DNA of 6,973 bases from contig SUVZ01000200.1 of assembly GCA_015061765.1 (NCBI GenBank), positions 1 to 6,973 on the forward strand. The letters are read 5' to 3'. The translations under genes and the position numbers were made by a program. The notes under the pieces were generated by a model. It had not been told where the DNA came from, searched no databases, and saw only the letters and a program-made list of their open reading frames with translations. The DNA is from Lentisphaerota bacterium. Lineage in GTDB: Bacteria; Verrucomicrobiota; Kiritimatiellia; RFP12; UBA1067. Shown piece after piece: positions 1-6,419 of the stretch; within the stretch, counting starts at the first letter, position 1; each line of letters begins with the position of its first letter.

Positions 1-88
1 TAGAAATGATGTAAAAGCGTGACTTATCGTCCGGGTATTGAAAACGCCCAGATTCATCAATAAATATGCTTAACACCTTTTCTGTCAT
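1..88 (-). CDS. DUF3800 domain protein, N-terminal fragment (runs off the window)
   Basis: Minus-strand frame read down to base 1 gives 29 residues beginning MTEKVLSIFIDESGRFQYPD. The hydrophobic strand followed by Asp-Glu-Ser-Gly near the N-terminus is the hallmark of DUF3800 proteins. These have a predicted RNase H-like fold, and the Asp is thought to be an active-site residue. They are scattered through phages, mobile islands and defence regions, and their function is not settled. An in-frame ATG lies 12 nt upstream at 100 and would add MILT. Neither start has a clear Shine-Dalgarno site, so the start is uncertain. The gene has its own promoter (189-217) and a structured leader (100-181), so it is probably a separate transcription unit from the operon to its right. 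The rest of the gene lies outside the window, so family membership rests on the N-terminal motif only. Confidence 0.72.
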   Translation of the reverse strand, partial: MTEKVLSIFIDESGRFQYPDDKSRFYIIS

Positions 89-99
89 AGTTAAAATCA

Positions 100-181
100 T
101 AAGTGACGAGAATTGCTTCCCGTCACTTAAGGCGGAGAACTTCCCCCGCTTCTCGAAGATCCCTACCTTTCGGTTGAGATC
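100..181 (-). promoter_or_regulatory. Three-hairpin structured leader RNA upstream of the DUF3800 gene
   Basis: Read on the minus strand, three hairpins lie almost back to back. Hairpin I (181-158) has six outer pairs including one G-U, an A-A mismatch, three inner pairs and a GAAA tetraloop. Hairpin II (149-132) has a six-pair stem, GCGGGG with CTCCGC. Hairpin III (129-100) has nine pairs (TAAGTGACG with CGTCACTTA), one mismatch, three more pairs and a four-base loop. Hairpin I starts at the base predicted as +1 from the promoter at 189-217, and hairpin III ends at the first possible start codon. It could be a translational control element, an attenuator or a small RNA. It matches no RNA family I recognise. 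The folding was judged by eye. Confidence 0.5.
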
Positions 182-188
182 GGTTCAT

Positions 189-217
189 ATTATCTCATAT
201 CGCGGTTCAGAAAGCAA
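189..217 (-). promoter_or_regulatory. Sigma-70-type promoter of the DUF3800 transcript
   Basis: On the minus strand, -35 TTGCTT (217-212), a 17-nt spacer and -10 GATAAT (194-189) preceded by TGA (extended -10). The predicted +1 is G181 or its neighbour. The extended -10 matches the other promoters in this window. Confidence 0.6.
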
Positions 218-240
218 GTGGGGAATTTTGAAACACGACG

Positions 241-299
241 CTCCCTGTTCCCTCTTCCCCGTTCCCTGTTCCCCAAGCGAAGCGCTTCCCTCTTCCCTA
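241..299 (-). repeat. Degenerate heptad repeat array overlapping the stop of the 249-aa gene
   Basis: On the plus strand, units CTCCCTG, TTCCCTC, TTCCCCG, TTCCCTG, TTCCCCA, then a 10-base interruption AGCGAAGCGC, then TTCCCTC and TTCCCTA. The last unit contains the TAG stop (299-297) of the upstream gene. The array belongs to the same family as those at 1049-1140, 1514-1536 and 4287-4380. A lone GGGGAA at 220-225 in the opposite orientation may be the remnant of a partner arm. The interruption forms a 5-bp hairpin (AAGCG with CGCTT). No gene lies in 89-296. Confidence 0.85.
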
Positions 300-1046
300 A
301 TCAAGCTGCAACAACTTTATACCAAGATTGCGAAGCTGGTTATTGCGCTCTTCCCACAGATCAAGGTAACGGTCAGAGGTCATTGTTTCCTTGGCTCTTT
401 TCAATTCCGCCTTGGCTCGCTCATAAATCGCAATCTCGGCTTCTTGCCTTTCTGTAAGGCGCTTGCCATATTCAACAACAGTTCCTCCGGCTTGAAGATA
501 TGCACGAGCCTCATCCTTCATTCCTTCGACCATTGCTTTTATTTGCCTCACTTCGAGCGAATCCGATGCCATTATCTCCTGTCGAGAATTCAGAGCCTGC
601 ATAAAGGATTCCTCGCTCGTGTTTCGCTGCCCAGGTCTAACGCCGGGTATTGCAAAACTCGCGAGAAACCTATCCCCCTCCAACTCAAAAACATCAGACC
701 ATCCGGTAAGAATGCCCTTCTCAATTACTGCGACATCCCCTATAATCTGCCGACGCGTCTGATCCTCTTGAAATTGTGCGACCGCTTCATGCTCTCCCTT
801 ACGGGCTCCTGTAAAATAAGCGACACTTCCGACAATTACGGCTACACACACAATCGCTACAAACACCACTCGCTTGCGAACGCCCCTCATTTCCCCATTC
901 GCTTTTGAACCGTCAGCAGCAACAACTTTAATAGCCTTAATGCCGCGTTTGCGAAGTTCAGCGAACACCTCATCTCTCGATGAGGCGTTCATAAAGTCCT
1001 CATGGCGAACGCCGTCAGAGGTCTTGTATGCGTATGTATATTTCAT
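297..1046 (-). CDS. Bitopic membrane protein with GspF-N-like N-terminus, paralogue of the 312-aa protein
   Basis: 249 residues. Residues 1-45 (MKYTYAYKTSDG... to LRKRGIKAIKVV) follow the pattern of the N-terminal domain of GspF/PilC proteins: aromatic strand, Gly turn, Ala-Ser helix, L..RGI. One membrane helix lies at about 59-79 after Arg/Lys residues (RGVRKR), so the N-terminus is probably cytoplasmic and the rest periplasmic. The C-terminal part (about 80-249) is charged and helical. It shares GGTV.EY and a final RNNQLRNLGIKLLQL with the C-terminus of the 312-aa protein, so the two are full-length paralogues. No catalytic motif is visible. The ATG is supported by alignment with the paralogue, but there is no Shine-Dalgarno site: a C/T-rich heptad array ends 2 bases upstream. 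It is the last gene of the operon and its TAG stop lies inside another array. The function is unknown. Confidence 0.8.
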   Translation of the reverse strand: MKYTYAYKTSDGVRHEDFMNASSRDEVFAELRKRGIKAIKVVAADGSKANGEMRGVRKRVVFVAIVCVAVIVGSVAYFTGARKGEHEAVAQFQEDQTRRQIIGDVAVIEKGILTGWSDVFELEGDRFLASFAIPGVRPGQRNTSEESFMQALNSRQEIMASDSLEVRQIKAMVEGMKDEARAYLQAGGTVVEYGKRLTERQEAEIAIYERAKAELKRAKETMTSDRYLDLWEERNNQLRNLGIKLLQLD

Positions 1047-1048
1047 TT

Positions 1049-1140
1049 TAGGGAACGGGGAACAGGGAACGGGGAACAGGGAACGGGGAACAGGGAACGG
1101 GGAACAGGGAACGGGGAACAGGGAACGGGGAACGGGGAAT
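1049..1140 (+). repeat. Heptad repeat array (GGGAACR)12, left arm of the S23 module
   Basis: On the plus strand, TA, then GGGAACG and GGGAACA alternating strictly for five pairs (1051-1120), then GGGAACG twice and GGGAAT. The true period is therefore 14 bp over most of its length. It fills nearly all the space between the S23 gene stop (1149) and the 249-aa gene start (1046). It is oriented opposite to the array at 1514-1536. Confidence 0.95.
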
Positions 1141-1148
1141 ATTCATTG

Positions 1149-1499
1149 TCAGCCTCGCAATTTCTGAATCATCACATAGAGCATCTTGCTGATACTATCA
1201 ATCAGAGCAGATGGAATATCCTTCTCAGCTACATATTGAAATCGTAATGCAAGATCGAGTTGCGTTCTTACTTCAAATAATGAACCTCGTGCAATAGAGA
1301 TAAAATGAGCATATTCACTTCGCGAATCACGCCCATTACCCTCTGCAATATTCGACGGAATAGAAATAACAGCACGTCTCAACTGATCGCACAATGCATA
1401 ACGCTCTTCTTGCGGGAATTTACGAACTAGGCCATACACCTTTTCGCACAGTTCCATAGACTGCTTCCAAACCTCTAAATCTCTATAATCAAGAGCCAC
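1149..1499 (-). CDS. Four-helix-bundle protein, S23 / 23S rRNA intervening-sequence protein family
   Basis: 116 residues, the normal size for the family. Family features seen: YRDLEVWKQSMELCEKVY in helix 1, FPQEERYALCDQLRRAVISI in helix 2, the signature SIPSNIAEGNGRDSRSEYAHF, and ARGSLFEVRTQLDLA in helix 3. Family members are encoded in intervening sequences of 23S rRNA genes (for example Leptospira and Coxiella) and as free genes. They form small, often multimeric four-helix bundles of unclear function. Avd of diversity-generating retroelements has the same fold, but no reverse transcriptase is visible here. The start is GTG at 1499: GAGGG lies 7 nt upstream and an in-frame TGA lies two codons upstream. 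The gene is flanked on both sides by heptad arrays in opposite orientation and separates two operon genes. Confidence 0.9.
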   Translation of the reverse strand: MALDYRDLEVWKQSMELCEKVYGLVRKFPQEERYALCDQLRRAVISIPSNIAEGNGRDSRSEYAHFISIARGSLFEVRTQLDLALRFQYVAEKDIPSALIDSISKMLYVMIQKLRG

Positions 1500-1513
1500 A
1501 ACTCATCCCTCTC

Positions 1514-1536
1514 TGTTCCCTGTTCCCTGTTCCCTA
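1514..1536 (-). repeat. Short heptad array, right arm of the S23 module
   Basis: On the plus strand TGTTCCC three times in perfect tandem (1514-1534) followed by TA. On the minus strand it reads TAGGGAACAGGGAAC and onward. It lies in the 39 nt between the 248-aa gene stop and the S23 GTG start, and the S23 ribosome site begins just after it. It is complementary to the array at 1049-1140. Confidence 0.9.
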
Positions 1537-1538
1537 TC

Positions 1539-2285
1539 TCACCGGCCTTTCTTGGGGTCGAACTGAATCTTCATCGGGTTCTTCGGAATGGAGTGAATTT
1601 CATCCCATATCGCCTTTTGGAAGGAGTTTGTCGGTTGCGCCGCCCAACCTTCCATGCAAGCACGACGATAGGTTGTCTTGCGAGACTGAGTTACACCAAG
1701 ATTCTGAAGGTTGCGCATGATTGACTGCAATGCATCAAACGTGATTCCCTCGCTGTGCAATTTATCAAGATCACTGACGCTCTTGACCGTCTGCATCGGC
1801 GATCCCTTAAACTGCGAAACACCCGCTCCAAGAGTTGCAATCATAACACGAGCGAGCGCCTTATTGAAGCGAGGATTACCTTCAAGTTTAGCCACATTCA
1901 AAACGCCCCACTGCTCTTCCATCGCCACCAAGGTCAAGGGAAGGTTTGCGTCGTTAACGATAAAAACAGCCGCATTCGCACCTGCGGGAACCTTGTCGCC
2001 GAATTTCCACGCCCCCTTCTCGATATCGATTTTCACGCGAATCGCACCATTGCACTTCTTAACCTGTGCATCAATATCCTGAACAGAATATTTTTCCTGC
2101 GCATTCACGATAACGATCCGCCCTGTGCCAGGCTTCTCGATAATGCCGCCTGTCTTCTCCATCATCCGCTGACGAGCCTGCGCCTTCTTCGCAGCCTTCT
2201 CCGCTTCTGTCAATTCAGCCCCCTTCTCCTGAGCATACGAGGCTATCGCGCAAAACGCGACAATTGCAATTACTAACTTCTTCAT
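1539..2285 (-). CDS. Secreted protein of unknown function
   Basis: 248 residues. A classical signal peptide is visible: MKK, then hydrophobic LVIAIVAFCAIASYA, with likely cleavage after Ala18 (ASYA|QEKG). A charged Ala/Lys/Glu helix follows (about 24-45), then a mixed alpha/beta domain with strands such as GRIVIVNAQ, AIRVKIDI and NAAVFIVND and conserved-looking stretches NLPLTLVAMEEQWGVLNVAKL and KTTYRRACMEGWAAQPTN. The C-terminus is basic (FDPKKGR). No HExxH or other catalytic motif is present. The style is like secreted hypothetical proteins of gut PVC bacteria, but I cannot name a family. The start is supported by AAGGA 8 nt upstream. It begins 17 nt after the 312-aa gene, so the two are co-transcribed. 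The partner proteins have periplasmic domains, so a shared envelope role is plausible. Confidence 0.8.
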   Translation of the reverse strand: MKKLVIAIVAFCAIASYAQEKGAELTEAEKAAKKAQARQRMMEKTGGIIEKPGTGRIVIVNAQEKYSVQDIDAQVKKCNGAIRVKIDIEKGAWKFGDKVPAGANAAVFIVNDANLPLTLVAMEEQWGVLNVAKLEGNPRFNKALARVMIATLGAGVSQFKGSPMQTVKSVSDLDKLHSEGITFDALQSIMRNLQNLGVTQSRKTTYRRACMEGWAAQPTNSFQKAIWDEIHSIPKNPMKIQFDPKKGR

Positions 2286-2302
2286 TTCACTGTCCTTTCT
2301 TT

Positions 2303-3241
2303 TTAGTCTTCAATTCCTAATTGTTCTTTTAATTTGGGCGGCAATTTTACAGGCCTGATACCCTTTTGGGCAAGCCTGTTATTTATTTCCGCGATGTAGT
2401 CTGCTGCGAGGTCGGGTTCATCCCTTACGACCTGCAACACACTTTTTTGACATTCTTTCCACTCATTGTGAGCCTGCATCAGTTCGCCTCGGTAGTATTC
2501 GAGAAACGAATCAACCGTACCACCTTCCTTGATGTACTTAATCAGCTCCTTCTTTGCAAGCTCGACCATCTGCTTGGCCTCTTTGGCTTTTTCGCTATCG
2601 CCTTCGAAGATTGGATTTTTAGCCATCAGAATTTCAGCCATGTGAGCCTCGTCACGAATGGGAATACGTGGCAACGGTGGCGGCATCGCTCCTAATTCTG
2701 TCGTGAATATCCAACTCATCACCTGCTCTGTGCCGGTCTTGAAAAGGCGATTGGTTGACGGAGTTAGGTCTATCGGCTTTTTGGCTGCCTCCTCAAAGAG
2801 ATATTGCATCCGCTCTTCCGGGGTCATGGCTCTTAATTTCGCGATGCGCTCGGCCTTCTCTTTATCAACTTTTGAAACCTCCTCAACTGGAGCAGGCGGC
2901 TGCTCCTTTGGCAGAGCCGGTTTTACGGTTCGCACAGTCTTTGGCGGCTTTTTCTCTTTTACTGGAGCCTTCTTAGGCGCTTCTTCCTGACAAAAATAGA
3001 CTAAAGCACCACATAATCCCAATATAGCGACAAGTACCAACAATAATATCTTAAAATTATTAGATGAGACTCCCCGTGATTTATTGGATCGCGAAGACTT
3101 CTTTGTCGCTTCATTTATTAAAATTGGATTGATGCCCTTCTCCTTTAATTTTGGCCAAATGGCATCCTTAGAAGGTGCTTCGATTTGAAGCACCTCCTTA
3201 CCTCCTGTTTTAGCATTGCGATATGTAACATCAAATACCAT
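2303..3241 (-). CDS. Bitopic membrane protein with GspF-N-like N-terminus and Pro/Lys/Glu-rich periplasmic linker
   Basis: 312 residues, first gene of the operon. Residues 1-45 (MVFDVTYRNAKTGGKEVLQI onward, LKEKGINPILIN) resemble the GspF/PilC N-terminal domain. A basic stretch (KKSSRSNKSRG, 47-57) precedes one membrane helix at about 63-83. A linker rich in Pro, Lys and Glu (about 86-130) follows, of the kind that spans the periplasm, then a helical domain with a PEERMQYLFEEAA segment and a C-terminal EINNRLAQKGIRPVKLP. It aligns along its length with the 249-aa protein encoded at 297-1046. A GspF-like role is unlikely, since the multi-pass GspF core is absent. ATG is chosen because AAGGA lies 6 nt upstream and a promoter with +1 near 3261 precedes it. 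The function is unknown; a TonB- or secretion-like scaffold is a guess only. Confidence 0.8.
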   Translation of the reverse strand: MVFDVTYRNAKTGGKEVLQIEAPSKDAIWPKLKEKGINPILINEATKKSSRSNKSRGVSSNNFKILLLVLVAILGLCGALVYFCQEEAPKKAPVKEKKPPKTVRTVKPALPKEQPPAPVEEVSKVDKEKAERIAKLRAMTPEERMQYLFEEAAKKPIDLTPSTNRLFKTGTEQVMSWIFTTELGAMPPPLPRIPIRDEAHMAEILMAKNPIFEGDSEKAKEAKQMVELAKKELIKYIKEGGTVDSFLEYYRGELMQAHNEWKECQKSVLQVVRDEPDLAADYIAEINNRLAQKGIRPVKLPPKLKEQLGIED

Positions 3242-3267
3242 AATAAGTCCTTAATTTAGCACCTAAC

Positions 3268-3298
3268 ATTATACCATAAGTATATGGGGTTAAATCAA
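3268..3298 (-). promoter_or_regulatory. Promoter of the 312-248-249 operon
   Basis: On the minus strand a perfect -10 TATAAT (3273-3268) preceded by TGG (extended -10). A weak -35 TTGATT lies at 3298-3293 with a long 19-nt spacer, so the extended -10 probably dominates. AACCCC lies 12 nt upstream of the -10, exactly as in the lysA promoter. The promoter overlaps the last codons of the integrase gene, and the leader is about 20 nt. Confidence 0.75.
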
Positions 3299-4204
3299 GT
3301 CCGTTACGCGAATATCACCAATATTCGGTTGGGCGGGGTCGGCGTAATAATAGGTAATTGTCTTTATGTCATCGCCCGAAATCGACACAGCCATCTCCGC
3401 TCCGAACTTCTGATATACATGGTCGACACATATTTTCCTCAGTTCATACGCACCTTTCGGACCATTGAAGCCCATATCGCGCATCTTCTGGTTGAGGCGT
3501 ATGAAGATATCGTCATCAAGAGTGGGGAGTTGATCGCCCTCCATCAAAGTCTGTATCTTATTCCAAATCTCAGGATGAACCGGCCATTTGACCGTCCGAG
3601 CCGAGGAGTGAACCGTCTTATTCGGAGTATAGTTCAAATATATGCGCCCTTCTCGTTCGACAAAATTCCTTCGGCTAAGTCTCATGATGTCGCCGTTTCG
3701 CATCGCAAACTCAAGCATCATCGTCGTTACAAACCAAAGCTGATCGATCGGCATAGACCGATACCAATCCTTAACCTTAGCAAGCATCTCTCTTGACGGA
3801 CGCGAATACCGGGGAGCCATCGGCTTCTTGCCAAAAGATGGGAACATCGGCACTTTCCAGCCGTGATCTTCATAATAAGGACGCACCCAACGCGAGAAAA
3901 GCTGCCTAAGCTGGTAAATATATGTCATAGCCGTAATTGGCCGAGTACCGCCCTTCAACAGATCTGCAAGGTACTTGTGTATTAAGGCAGGTTTTACCAC
4001 CGACACCAGCGGAAAGCCGTCTTCTAAATCTTTATAGTCATACCCGTTCTTCAACCTTCTTTCATTCATCCACCGAACAAAGCGCTTAACGCCCTGCTTC
4101 GTATTCTTGACCGTCCCCTTTTCAGGTCTGCCGCATTTCATTCGCTCAATGGCCGCAGCATCCACATAGGCCTTGAGCATTTTATCCATAGTTGGTGTTG
4201 TCAT
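3290..4204 (-). CDS. Tyrosine recombinase / integrase, atypical active site
   Basis: 304 residues, the usual length. The N-terminal part (about 8-115) has the helical core-binding look: VKNTKQGVKRFVRWMNER and TAMTYIYQLRQLFSRWV. The catalytic part shows Arg169 in LEFAMRNGDIMRLSRRNF (the box normally written TGlR..E...L), Lys196 in NKT on the beta-hairpin, Arg256 in YELRK (normally HxLRH) and a nucleophile Tyr in TITYYYADP, most likely Tyr287 from its spacing to Gly277. The two histidines common in the family are replaced (Tyr253 and Asp278). It would cut and rejoin DNA at an att or resolution site. The start has AAAGGA 8 nt upstream. The gene lies about 770 bp from a tRNA-Val gene, which fits integrase of an element, but it could also be a stand-alone recombinase. 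Activity with the changed residues is uncertain. Confidence 0.85.
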   Translation of the reverse strand: MTTPTMDKMLKAYVDAAAIERMKCGRPEKGTVKNTKQGVKRFVRWMNERRLKNGYDYKDLEDGFPLVSVVKPALIHKYLADLLKGGTRPITAMTYIYQLRQLFSRWVRPYYEDHGWKVPMFPSFGKKPMAPRYSRPSREMLAKVKDWYRSMPIDQLWFVTTMMLEFAMRNGDIMRLSRRNFVEREGRIYLNYTPNKTVHSSARTVKWPVHPEIWNKIQTLMEGDQLPTLDDDIFIRLNQKMRDMGFNGPKGAYELRKICVDHVYQKFGAEMAVSISGDDIKTITYYYADPAQPNIGDIRVTDLI

Positions 4205-4286
4205 CGTGTTTTCCTTTCTTTATTGTTTTCTGAGTCCATACCAGCAGACCCTTCAACAATATATTAAACACGATAACTATTTTTTT

Positions 4287-4380
4287 GGGGAATGGGGAAC
4301 GGGGAACGGGGAACGGGGAATGGGGAACGGTAATGAAGTGGTCATGAACCCTCAACCGTTCCCCTTCAACCGCTCCCCTA
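4287..4380 (-). repeat. Inverted heptad-array pair without an ORF (MITE-like)
   Basis: The left arm (4287-4330) is six units GGGGAAT/GGGGAAC plus GG. The right arm (4356-4380) is degenerate: CCGTTCCCC, then TTCAACCG, then CTCCCCTA. The inner ends form a perfect 9-bp stem (GGGGAACGG 4322-4330 with CCGTTCCCC 4356-4364) around 25 bases that encode nothing visible. Orientation and the terminal CCCTA match the S23 module, so it may be a non-coding relative. It lies between the 47-aa gene stop and the integrase leader (4205-4286), where I see no convincing promoter. Confidence 0.8.
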
Positions 4381-4381
4381 A

Positions 4382-4525
4382 TCACGGCAATCTATCAACA
4401 ACCGCTTTCAGTTGCGCTTTCAGTTCATCAAGCTGCTCCCATTCCTCATGAGCCTCCGCATACGCCATCAATCCCTCAATGCGCCGAATCTCTTCTATCA
4501 ACTTATCTCTCTGCTGCATTGCCAT
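4382..4525 (-). CDS. Small charged helical (coiled-coil-like) protein, 47 aa
   Basis: Reads MAMQQRDKLIEEIRRIEGLM then AYAEAHEEWEQLDELKAQL and ends VVDRLP. It is almost wholly helical, with hydrophobic residues at heptad-like spacing and alternating acid/base residues, and has no Cys. An ATG two codons upstream (4531) is possible, but GAGGTG at 4537-4532 lies directly against it and 6 nt from the ATG at 4525, so the latter is preferred. It follows the truncated HNH gene and precedes the integrase in the same direction, so it is probably part of the same accessory unit. A partner-binding or regulatory subunit is conceivable. I do not recognise the family. Confidence 0.6.
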   Translation of the reverse strand: MAMQQRDKLIEEIRRIEGLMAYAEAHEEWEQLDELKAQLKAVVDRLP

Positions 4526-4625
4526 AATCATCACCTCATTCTCATCGGATTAGCAATAATCGTCTATTGAATCTCCACCCGTCCACTCAAGCCCCTGTAG
4601 AATGGTAAAAGCCTTCTCCACTCCC

Positions 4626-4880
4626 TCATCTGAGGTTTTCGACTCGGTTATTGCAGCGATTGGTGTCTATATGATCCACTACCAATTTCTTCGAATCGTT
4701 CTCGCCGTGGGAAACCGTCGCCACAATGATATGCACACGCGCCGTGCCGACCGTCATATACCCCGTCTTTTCGTTCTTCTCACCGAATGTCCAGACATTA
4801 TCCAACTTGCGCGGACGGCTCTCCTTTTTGCACACCCCTTGCTTCATCTCACTTTGGAGAGGTGTTCCGAAGCCCCGCAT
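4626..4880 (-). CDS. HNH endonuclease-like protein, C-terminally truncated
   Basis: Up to 84 residues. The HNH core is clear: ARVHIIVATV (first His), KKLVVDHIDTNRCNNRVENL (central Asp-His and the Asn-Asn...Glu-Asn-Leu end). Upstream, LDNVWTFGEKNEKTGYMTVG is the beta strand usual before it. Such proteins nick or cut DNA and are common in phages, as free-standing homing enzymes and in integrated elements. Family members usually continue after NLR with a Trp and an ENAxxNP stretch, but here a TGA follows NLR at once and no other frame restores it. It is probably cut short, and perhaps inactive. The start is doubtful: the ATG at 4880 has no ribosome site, and an internal ATG at 4847 (MKQGVCKKES) gives 73 residues and overlaps the TGA of a possible 24-codon reading frame (4918-4844). 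The 94 nt between it and the 47-aa gene hold no supported feature. Confidence 0.65.
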   Translation of the reverse strand: MRGFGTPLQSEMKQGVCKKESRPRKLDNVWTFGEKNEKTGYMTVGTARVHIIVATVSHGENDSKKLVVDHIDTNRCNNRVENLR

Positions 4881-4974: not shown

Positions 4975-5051
4975 TGGTGGGGACTGAGGGACTCGAACCC
5001 CCGACCCGCTGCGTGTAAAGCAGCCGCTCTAACCAACTGAGCTAAATCCCC
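4975..5051 (-). tRNA. tRNA-Val (anticodon UAC), CCA encoded
   Basis: 77 nt on the minus strand. Acceptor stem GGGGATT pairs with AGTCCCC (one T-G), followed by A and the encoded CCA. The D-arm contains TTAGCTCAGTTGGTTAGAGC. The anticodon stem is GCTGC/GCAGC with loop TTTACAC, giving anticodon TAC for valine. The T-arm contains GGGTTCGAGTCCC. All normal positions are present. It has its own promoter (5072-5100) and terminator (4934-4957). An integrase and HNH gene lie just downstream of its 3' end, the usual side for integration into tRNA genes. Confidence 0.97.
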
Positions 5052-5100: not shown

Positions 5101-5153
5101 TTGAAAACATCAACAGGCATGGAAAAATAATGTGTCAAACATCGCACCCCGAC

Positions 5154-6419
5154 TCAAAGACCGGGGAAGTCCAGAGTCGCAAAATAATCGGCGAGAGTTT
5201 CGGCGCGACGTATCTGCCTGACGGAACCATCCTCCCCTAGCAGGAGCTCCGCGCTGCGGAGCTTGCCGTTGTACTGGAAGCCCATCGCGTGTCCGTGCGC
5301 GCCGGCGTCATGAAGAACGACAATATCCCCCGGCTTCATCTCGGGAAGCTCGCGGTCGATGGCGAACTTGTCGTTGTTCTCGCAGAGCGAGCCGGTAACG
5401 TCACATTTCACTACCGGACGCTCAGCCGCATCATCCGCCATGAGCGTGATGTGGTGGTATGCGCCGTAGAGCGCGGGGCGCATCAGGTTCGCCATGCACG
5501 CATCGAGGCCGACATACGTCTTGTACGTTTTCTTGATGTGGCGCACACGGGAGACGAGGTATCCGTATGGACCGGTTATGCAACGCCCACACTCCATGTA
5601 CAAACGAGGCTCTGGCAAGCCTTTTGAAACGAGACGCTCTTTACACGCCGTTTCAATCCCCTTCCCGACAAACTCGATATCCATCGCCTGCTGGTCGGGG
5701 CGGTACGGGATTCCGATGCCGCCGCCGATGTTGATGAACTCGAACTCAATGCCGACTTCTGCAGAAATCTCCGCGACAAGATCGAAAAGAAGCGTTGCGG
5801 TATCGATGATGTACTGCGGATCAAGTTCGTTGGACGCAACCATCGTATGAAGCCCGAAACGCTTCACCCCCGCCTCTTTCATCCTGCGGTAGCACTCGAT
5901 CAGCTGTGGCTTCGTGAAACCGTACTTGGCCTCCTCCGGCTTGCCGATGATCGCATTGCCGCCTTTGAGCGGACCGGGATTCCAGCGGCAGCACATGAGT
6001 TCAGGCAACGGCTTGCCAACAGCCTTGAGCGCATTGACGAGAAAATCCCAGTGCGTGATATCGTCAAGATTGATGATCGCGCCAAGCTCCGCCGCCTTGA
6101 GGAATTCCTCCGCCGGCGTGTCGTTCGACGTGAACATGATGGACTCCCCGACATTCCCGACAGCCTCGGCCATGACCAGTTCCGCCATGGACGAACAGTC
6201 GCTACCGAATCCCTCCTCCTTCAGAAGGGCCATCAGGTGCGGGTTGGGCGCGGCCTTCACCGCAAAGAATTCACGGAATCCCCTGTTCCAGGCAAATGCA
6301 GCCTTAAGCCTGCGCGCATTCTCGCGGATCGCCTTCTCATCATAGATATGGAACGGCGTAGGGTGTTTCTCGACAATCGCCTCAAGCTGCGAAACTGTGA
6401 ATGGTGTATTCTTCGTCAT
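5154..6419 (-). CDS. lysA: Diaminopimelate decarboxylase (fold-type III PLP enzyme)
   Basis: 421 residues from the ATG at 6419. It converts meso-diaminopimelate to L-lysine and CO2 in the cytoplasm, the last step of lysine synthesis. Seen: PLP lysine Lys55 in FFAVKAAPNP; GLHTMVAS (His191) where most members have HxHIGS; the phosphate loop GGGIG (232-236); ECGR (276-279) where EPGR is usual; DACMANLMRPALY (306-318); catalytic Cys346-Glu347 in GSLCENND; and HDAGAHGHAM (370-379) with YN at 383-384. These fit the LysA branch better than ornithine/arginine decarboxylases, but the departures mark a divergent subgroup, so a related amino-acid decarboxylase is possible. The start at 6419 has AGGAG 5 nt upstream and lies after the promoter. 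A longer start at 6473 overlaps the recN stop (ATGA) but lies upstream of the -10. The gene is visibly richer in G+C than the accessory region. Confidence 0.9.
   Translation of the reverse strand: MTKNTPFTVSQLEAIVEKHPTPFHIYDEKAIRENARRLKAAFAWNRGFREFFAVKAAPNPHLMALLKEEGFGSDCSSMAELVMAEAVGNVGESIMFTSNDTPAEEFLKAAELGAIINLDDITHWDFLVNALKAVGKPLPELMCCRWNPGPLKGGNAIIGKPEEAKYGFTKPQLIECYRRMKEAGVKRFGLHTMVASNELDPQYIIDTATLLFDLVAEISAEVGIEFEFINIGGGIGIPYRPDQQAMDIEFVGKGIETACKERLVSKGLPEPRLYMECGRCITGPYGYLVSRVRHIKKTYKTYVGLDACMANLMRPALYGAYHHITLMADDAAERPVVKCDVTGSLCENNDKFAIDRELPEMKPGDIVVLHDAGAHGHAMGFQYNGKLRSAELLLGEDGSVRQIRRAETLADYFATLDFPGL

Follow-up and report, generated by a model that had tools for sequence, protein, structure and literature searches.

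An S23 gene between inverted heptad arrays in a protein operon: a probable insertion element of the intervening-sequence type

Introduction

Why does an S23 gene lie between two inverted arrays of a seven-nucleotide repeat in a protein operon? The question is raised by the window analyzed here, i.e., the whole stretch of 6,973 nucleotides from a Lentisphaerota bacterium. The intervening sequences (IVSs) of 23S rRNA in Coxiella and Leptospira likewise have one S23 ORF within complementary ends. As described in the sections of PMC4990558 that deal with it, the Coxiella IVS has a 28-bp terminal stem and, upstream of its S23 ORF, tandem heptamers whose number varies by strain. Unlike that element, the module in the window lies in a protein operon rather than in rRNA, and both of its arms are arrays.

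Heptamer repeats of the GGGAATC and GGGGA(C/T)T kinds occur in Xanthomonas and Nostoc, where they are dispersed and transcribed; two Xanthomonas genomes have 70 and 75 convergent pairs (Rehm et al., 2015; PMC4692102). The subject of that paper is G-quadruplexes; it leaves the role of the repeats open, and the terms "S23," "four helix," and "intervening" are absent from its main text. Its heptad is of the same kind as the one found below at Xanthomonas S23 loci. The TAACTGA repeats of Beggiatoaceae are described in a paper whose main text does not contain the term "S23" (PMC4679880). Among the open-access PMC matches listed, no title or opening of an abstract states a link between S23 and heptad repeats.

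Results

The window contains an S23 (PF05635) ORF that is flanked on both sides by inverted heptad arrays and lies between two operon genes. Two further array features lie outside this module. The features are as follows:

242..273 (+): solitary array of the C type next to the 3' end of the 249-aa gene; also present at locus L172 of genome G001
297..1046 (-): downstream gene of the operon, 249 aa, without a Pfam or NCBIfam match; 2 nt separate its ATG from the module
1049..1140 (+): left arm, a (AGGGAACGGGGAAC)n heptad array that becomes the 3' arm in the S23 transcript, with TAGGGAAC as its outer end
1149..1499 (-): S23/four-helix-bundle ORF, GTG start, 116 aa; PF05635, TIGR02436
1510..1536 (+): right arm, a (TGTTCCC)3 array that becomes the 5' arm in the S23 transcript, with GTTCCCTA as its outer end
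1539..2285 (-): upstream gene of the operon, 248 aa, without a Pfam or NCBIfam match; 2 nt separate its stop codon, TGA, from the module
4284..4381 (+): S23-less heptad hairpin with a G array at 4287-4330 and a C array at 4352-4379

The left array (1050-1139) consists of 6.4 copies of a 14-bp double unit with a 98% match, i.e., about 13 heptads, and the right array (1513-1535) of 3.3 copies with a 100% match. The segments 1049-1075 and 1510-1536 form an inverted pair of 27 nt that is 89% complementary. A preliminary description of this DNA had reported pairing at 21 of 23 positions and identical 8-bp outer ends; both were reproduced when 1049-1071 was compared with the reverse complement of 1514-1536. 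It had also proposed that the arms enclose the whole ORF in a stem of the minus-strand transcript. The predicted fold of that transcript (1030-1560) agrees, with the ORF enclosed by the arms, a minimum free energy of -160.3, and a z score of -3.39, and none of 100 shuffles was as stable. The hairpin at 4284-4381, folded as DNA, gave a z score of -2.64, with 1 of 200 shuffles equally stable.

An Rfam scan of the window matched tRNA alone, and the module lies in a protein operon; it has the complementary ends around an S23 ORF that mark an IVS, but not the location in an rRNA gene. S23 was the sole family match between the arms, within which there was no transposase, recombinase, or reverse transcriptase. 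The window ORFs scanned included no member of a transposase family, and the nine scanned for reverse transcriptase, the enzyme expected of a diversity-generating retroelement, had none. Five ORFs compared with known defense models gave no PADLOC matches.

The S23 protein matched PF05635 with an E value of 8.5e-37 and 126.1 bits (curated cut-off 33.8), and TIGR02436 was also matched; family scans returned only S23-family, four-helix-bundle, and Avd-type models, including a PHROG Avd match with an E value of 1e-5. Its structure model (pLDDT 96) resembled XCC0516 (PDB 2GSC; TM 0.9, 46% identity) and also matched BT_0352 (2RLD). Similarity to Avd was weaker (4DWL, TM 0.79, Foldseek E 0.02; DGR complex 8UBE, TM 0.80). 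The fold is thus held in common with Avd of diversity-generating retroelements, whereas the window has no reverse transcriptase among the ORFs scanned. A solved S23 homologue is a pentamer, and by analogy with Avd we infer that S23 binds nucleic acid.

The preliminary description had led us to expect S23 genes near such arrays in other genomes. Using the window S23 as query among genome contigs, we took the best 80 of 282 relatives, so that these loci are biased to window-like copies. Of 104 loci with a tblastn match, 84 had period-7 tracts at most 400 nt from S23 (85 entries, with L068 twice; the loci are redundant). All ten loci nearest to the window copy had such tracts downstream, and nine of the ten had them upstream. 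We then compared 300 nt upstream of each S23 gene with the reverse complement of 300 nt downstream, counting a score of at least 15 as a pass. In the first set (244 genes, 198 after removal of redundancy, and 190 after dropping 8 with short flanks), 133 of 190 had inverted flanks, versus 6 of 584 sequence windows taken from other parts of these loci. In 69/190, against 1/392 controls, both flanks had clean period-7 tracts. With the downstream flank counted from the stop codon, a variant that misses read-through arrays, 118/190 passed, compared with 2/392 controls and 11/570 mispaired flanks.

The final set, from many phyla, comprised 326 S23 genes, reduced to 255 after removal of redundancy and to 245 after dropping 10 with short flanks. 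Inverted flanking repeats were found in 174 of these 245, with 71 falling under the threshold. Far fewer passed when flanks were mispaired between loci (14/976), when S23 flanks were compared in direct orientation (32/245), or when other ORFs in the same loci were used (1/400). Less biased draws across three phyla, from which only the best matches were taken, gave a lower rate that was still far above the controls (39/78; 14/29 for the draw centered on Psychroflexus, 15/25 for Xanthomonas, and 10/24 for an Anaerolineaceae record). Inverted arms are, then, a feature of S23 genes as a class and not a local accident. S23 genes were found in 61/80, 37/200, and 31/81 genomes of the phylum draws, often in several copies; there was no match in phage records and a single match in viral contigs. 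We considered whether S23 genes without detected arms are rRNA IVSs; there was no Rfam match in the 20 loci scanned of 30 scoring below 12. By other readings, some of these 20 (L014, L022, L043, L080, and L182) have arrays on at least one side.

The expectation that arrays accompany S23 genes was borne out, but the heptad GGGAACR given in the preliminary description is not special in itself. Heptads vary widely by locus (AGGGAAC, AGTGATT, AGCTTTT, AGTAGGC, GGGACCG, and others), and within one locus both arms match in inverted form whatever the heptad. Among the 174 passing genes, the best period of the upstream arm was 7 in 137, 8 in 25, and another value in 12, and this arm was purine-rich in 155, versus 64% of random upstream segments. 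Since upstream arms mostly have period 7 and are purine-rich, the arms are oriented relative to the gene. Median arm length was 31 nt. Similarity between heptads increased with S23 protein identity (Mantel r 0.27, reached in 0/2000 permutations), for which shared descent alone could be another source.

Orthologous sites were compared at the module's own junction and on cyanobacterial plasmids. The window from 9 to 4528 is about 94-98% identical to genome G001 (L172), which is also filled with the module but has a left array 56 nt shorter. The gene order 312-248-249 is kept in more distant relatives. Of their eight 248|249 junctions, four have a bare stop/start overlap (L315 twice, L317, and L318), one has a short array-free spacer (L317), and three have S23-less arrays of other heptads (L316; arrays judged by eye). 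Junctions with and without the module, which the preliminary description had proposed to look for, thus both exist among relatives. The window junction has TGA on both sides, as the stop codon of the 248-aa gene and within the ATGA of the 249-aa gene. This arrangement, seen in one case, resembles a duplication of the overlap. The 248|249 junction looks like a repeated target.

Four filled plasmid loci were used as queries, and 11 relatives among the matches listed were compared for empty sites; the comparison was made without a tree, so that it does not polarize gain versus loss. The first site, after a traM-like gene, was filled in L178 and L187 and empty in L188, L189, and L191, while L190 had an array element without the S23 gene. 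The second, after an integrase gene, was filled in L176 and L177 and empty in L192, L193, and L194. At the third, L186 has the unit within what relatives show to be the final codons of a gene, and L195 and L196 are empty. The fourth (nrdB|nrdA) was filled in L173 and empty in L197. Array and S23 gene were jointly missing at the empty plasmid sites. No constant target-site duplication was clear at the plasmid sites; sites other than that of the window copy show small replacements. The neighbors of S23 differ across plasmid records (nrd, cas6/cas4, a traM-like gene, an integrase gene, and others). In 11 of the first 14 records the annotated neighbors on both sides are co-oriented, and in three of these 11 (L173, L179, and L183) S23 is antisense to them.

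Taken over all loci, gain or loss of the module was seen at operon junctions, at other intergenic gaps, and at one gene end. At the sequence level, arms and gene occur together and are jointly missing at empty sites, and the arms of a locus match each other. Orthologous sites with and without a unit are the general mark of a mobile unit, and it is from such sequence comparison that mobility is read here. We consider it probable that the module, an S23 gene with inverted heptad arms that is gained and lost as a unit, is a small IVS-type insertion element, and S23 is best read as its sole gene. The proposal in the preliminary description of an IVS-like module outside rRNA, set in a protein operon, fits the empty junctions in relatives; its suggestions of excision at TA and of arms that are the substrate of S23 or RNase III are kept here as possibilities.

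A different emphasis would make the module an RNA-processing element, whose stem is kept for RNase III removal of the S23 segment from host transcripts, with mobility secondary or past. This is compatible with an insertion element, and several observations suit it: the predicted fold places the ORF inside the arms, arms agree within a locus despite differing heptads (the 14/976 of mispaired flanks), and, in the sections of PMC4990558 on the Coxiella IVS, RNase III cuts where the upstream heptamers begin. However, S23 is antisense in three of the 11 co-oriented plasmid loci, and therefore a host transcript is not needed to carry the S23 gene; moreover, a cut of this kind severs an mRNA, unlike an rRNA. 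We regard RNA processing as a somewhat unlikely account of why the stem is kept.

The insertion-element reading also has to be weighed against slippage. Arrays could be microsatellites grown by slippage, with S23 having hitchhiked into array-rich places or been moved by recombination between older arrays. The number of units does vary, as in the shorter left array of L172, some genomes have many arrays at a distance from S23 (G007 has 389 overlapping array-pattern matches), and PMC4679880 states that among long SSRs the heptad class is the most frequent in most genomes. That idea was already weakened by empty sites that are array-free, and most loci have inverted arms whose orientation follows that of the gene, while same-locus controls passed in only 1%. 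An origin by slippage is accordingly improbable.

Among Xanthomonas genomes of the genus set, S23 was matched in 32/35 and GGGAATC arrays in 34/35. A family search placed S23 between accB and accC in L370, whose protein is close to XCC0516, and accB lies beside S23 in eight of the nine loci viewed by eye. The GGGAATC-type heptads beside L370 are next to a close homologue of the 2GSC structure, at what is one place in most Xanthomonas loci viewed. The flanks of the accB-side loci are G-rich and C-rich, of the GGGAATC or GGGATTG kind, and short in L375 and L381; in the ninth locus, L361, S23 precedes carB and has GGGGACC heptads. Exact GGGAATC units were present in 22 of 30 S23 loci, on one strand per locus, with variants in the other arm. 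The accB-adjacent S23 looks vertically inherited. In L361-L389 several S23 frames extend far from stop to stop (up to 506 aa), some running through arrays, and annotated lengths are therefore perhaps unreliable.

It is very improbable that the arrays are a local regulatory module that supplies a domesticated S23, serving a host function, with its ribosome-binding site and its terminator, for although the purine-rich upstream arm lies a median of 36.5 nt ahead of the S23 domain, where it might act as a Shine-Dalgarno sequence, and accB adjoins S23 in most Xanthomonas loci viewed, orthologous sites are patchily occupied and genomes carry several S23 copies, with unlike heptads in the loci seen.

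At the level of whole genomes, the relation of array number to S23 number is mixed. The three Xanthomonas genomes without S23 had 18, 0, and 8 GGGAATC matches, and the others 4-159 (p 0.007, uncorrected for shared ancestry); adding two genomes with partial or fragmented S23, chosen post hoc, gave p 3e-4, again uncorrected for shared ancestry. In 58 genomes of the genus of G001, S23 count did not correlate with GGGAAY array matches (rho 0.06-0.08), and G047 had 53 array matches without S23. When these genomes were split by heptad, exact-type S23 was present in two of 58, with 28 and 117 matches (p 0.01, n = 2). Array-rich genomes without exact-type S23 were G035 (78), G004 (80, near-type), and G047.

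Discussion

How might an insertion element with S23 as its sole gene work? The S23 protein would bind the heptad arrays that flank its own gene, and single strands of the element, DNA or RNA, would fold into a hairpin through pairing of the inverted arms. A host enzyme, or one supplied in trans, may use this hairpin to copy or insert the element. Solitary arrays and hairpins that lack S23, including the one at 4284-4381, would be decayed or non-autonomous derivatives. As with rRNA IVSs, RNase III may also cut transcripts at the stem.

MITEs and REP/RAYT elements are small inverted-repeat units with gene-less derivatives. The module differs from them in that its arms are tandem arrays and not one terminal repeat, and no transposase or RAYT gene was found. 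Viewing S23 genes and heptamer repeats as one unit gives a testable role to both, each so far unexplained, and places rRNA IVSs in a larger class. It also raises the question of how an Avd-like protein works without an adjacent reverse transcriptase.

More tentatively, we raise the possibility that S23 is the agent behind many bacterial heptad arrays, propagating its own heptad both as arms and as non-autonomous arrays elsewhere. If so, S23-propagated heptads would account for the GGGAATC repeats of Xanthomonas, the short tandem heptads of cyanobacteria, and the TAACTGA repeats of Beggiatoaceae, and rRNA IVSs would be merely copies that landed in rRNA. The cyanobacterial "STRR" heptads may be S23-linked repeats, and the Beggiatoaceae repeats are a further candidate.

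Some further observations concern other modules and the surroundings of this one. L068 has two S23 modules about 1.3 kb apart, with unlike heptads. On plasmids from two genera, Anabaena sp. 90 (L175) and Pseudanabaena galeata (L180), annotated cas6 and cas4 genes flank an S23 module with long arrays, and the annotation next to L175 gives type I-D. Where the window has the heptad hairpin at 4284-4381, L172 has about 118 nt of another sequence, and there is therefore turnover at the hairpin spot too.

The left part of the window is 94-98% identical to G001 C62:1432-5932, while 5153-6362, on the lysA side, is just 72% identical to G001 elsewhere (C46). From these identities, the left part resembles an island that was transferred recently and has an end near tRNA-Val (4975-5051). 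A 304-aa ORF at 3290-4204 (-) has no Pfam match and a PHROG integrase match with an E value of 5e-11, and is likely to be the recombinase of the island. An 84-aa ORF at 4626-4880 (-), with an HNH_3 endonuclease domain, adjoins tRNA-Val.
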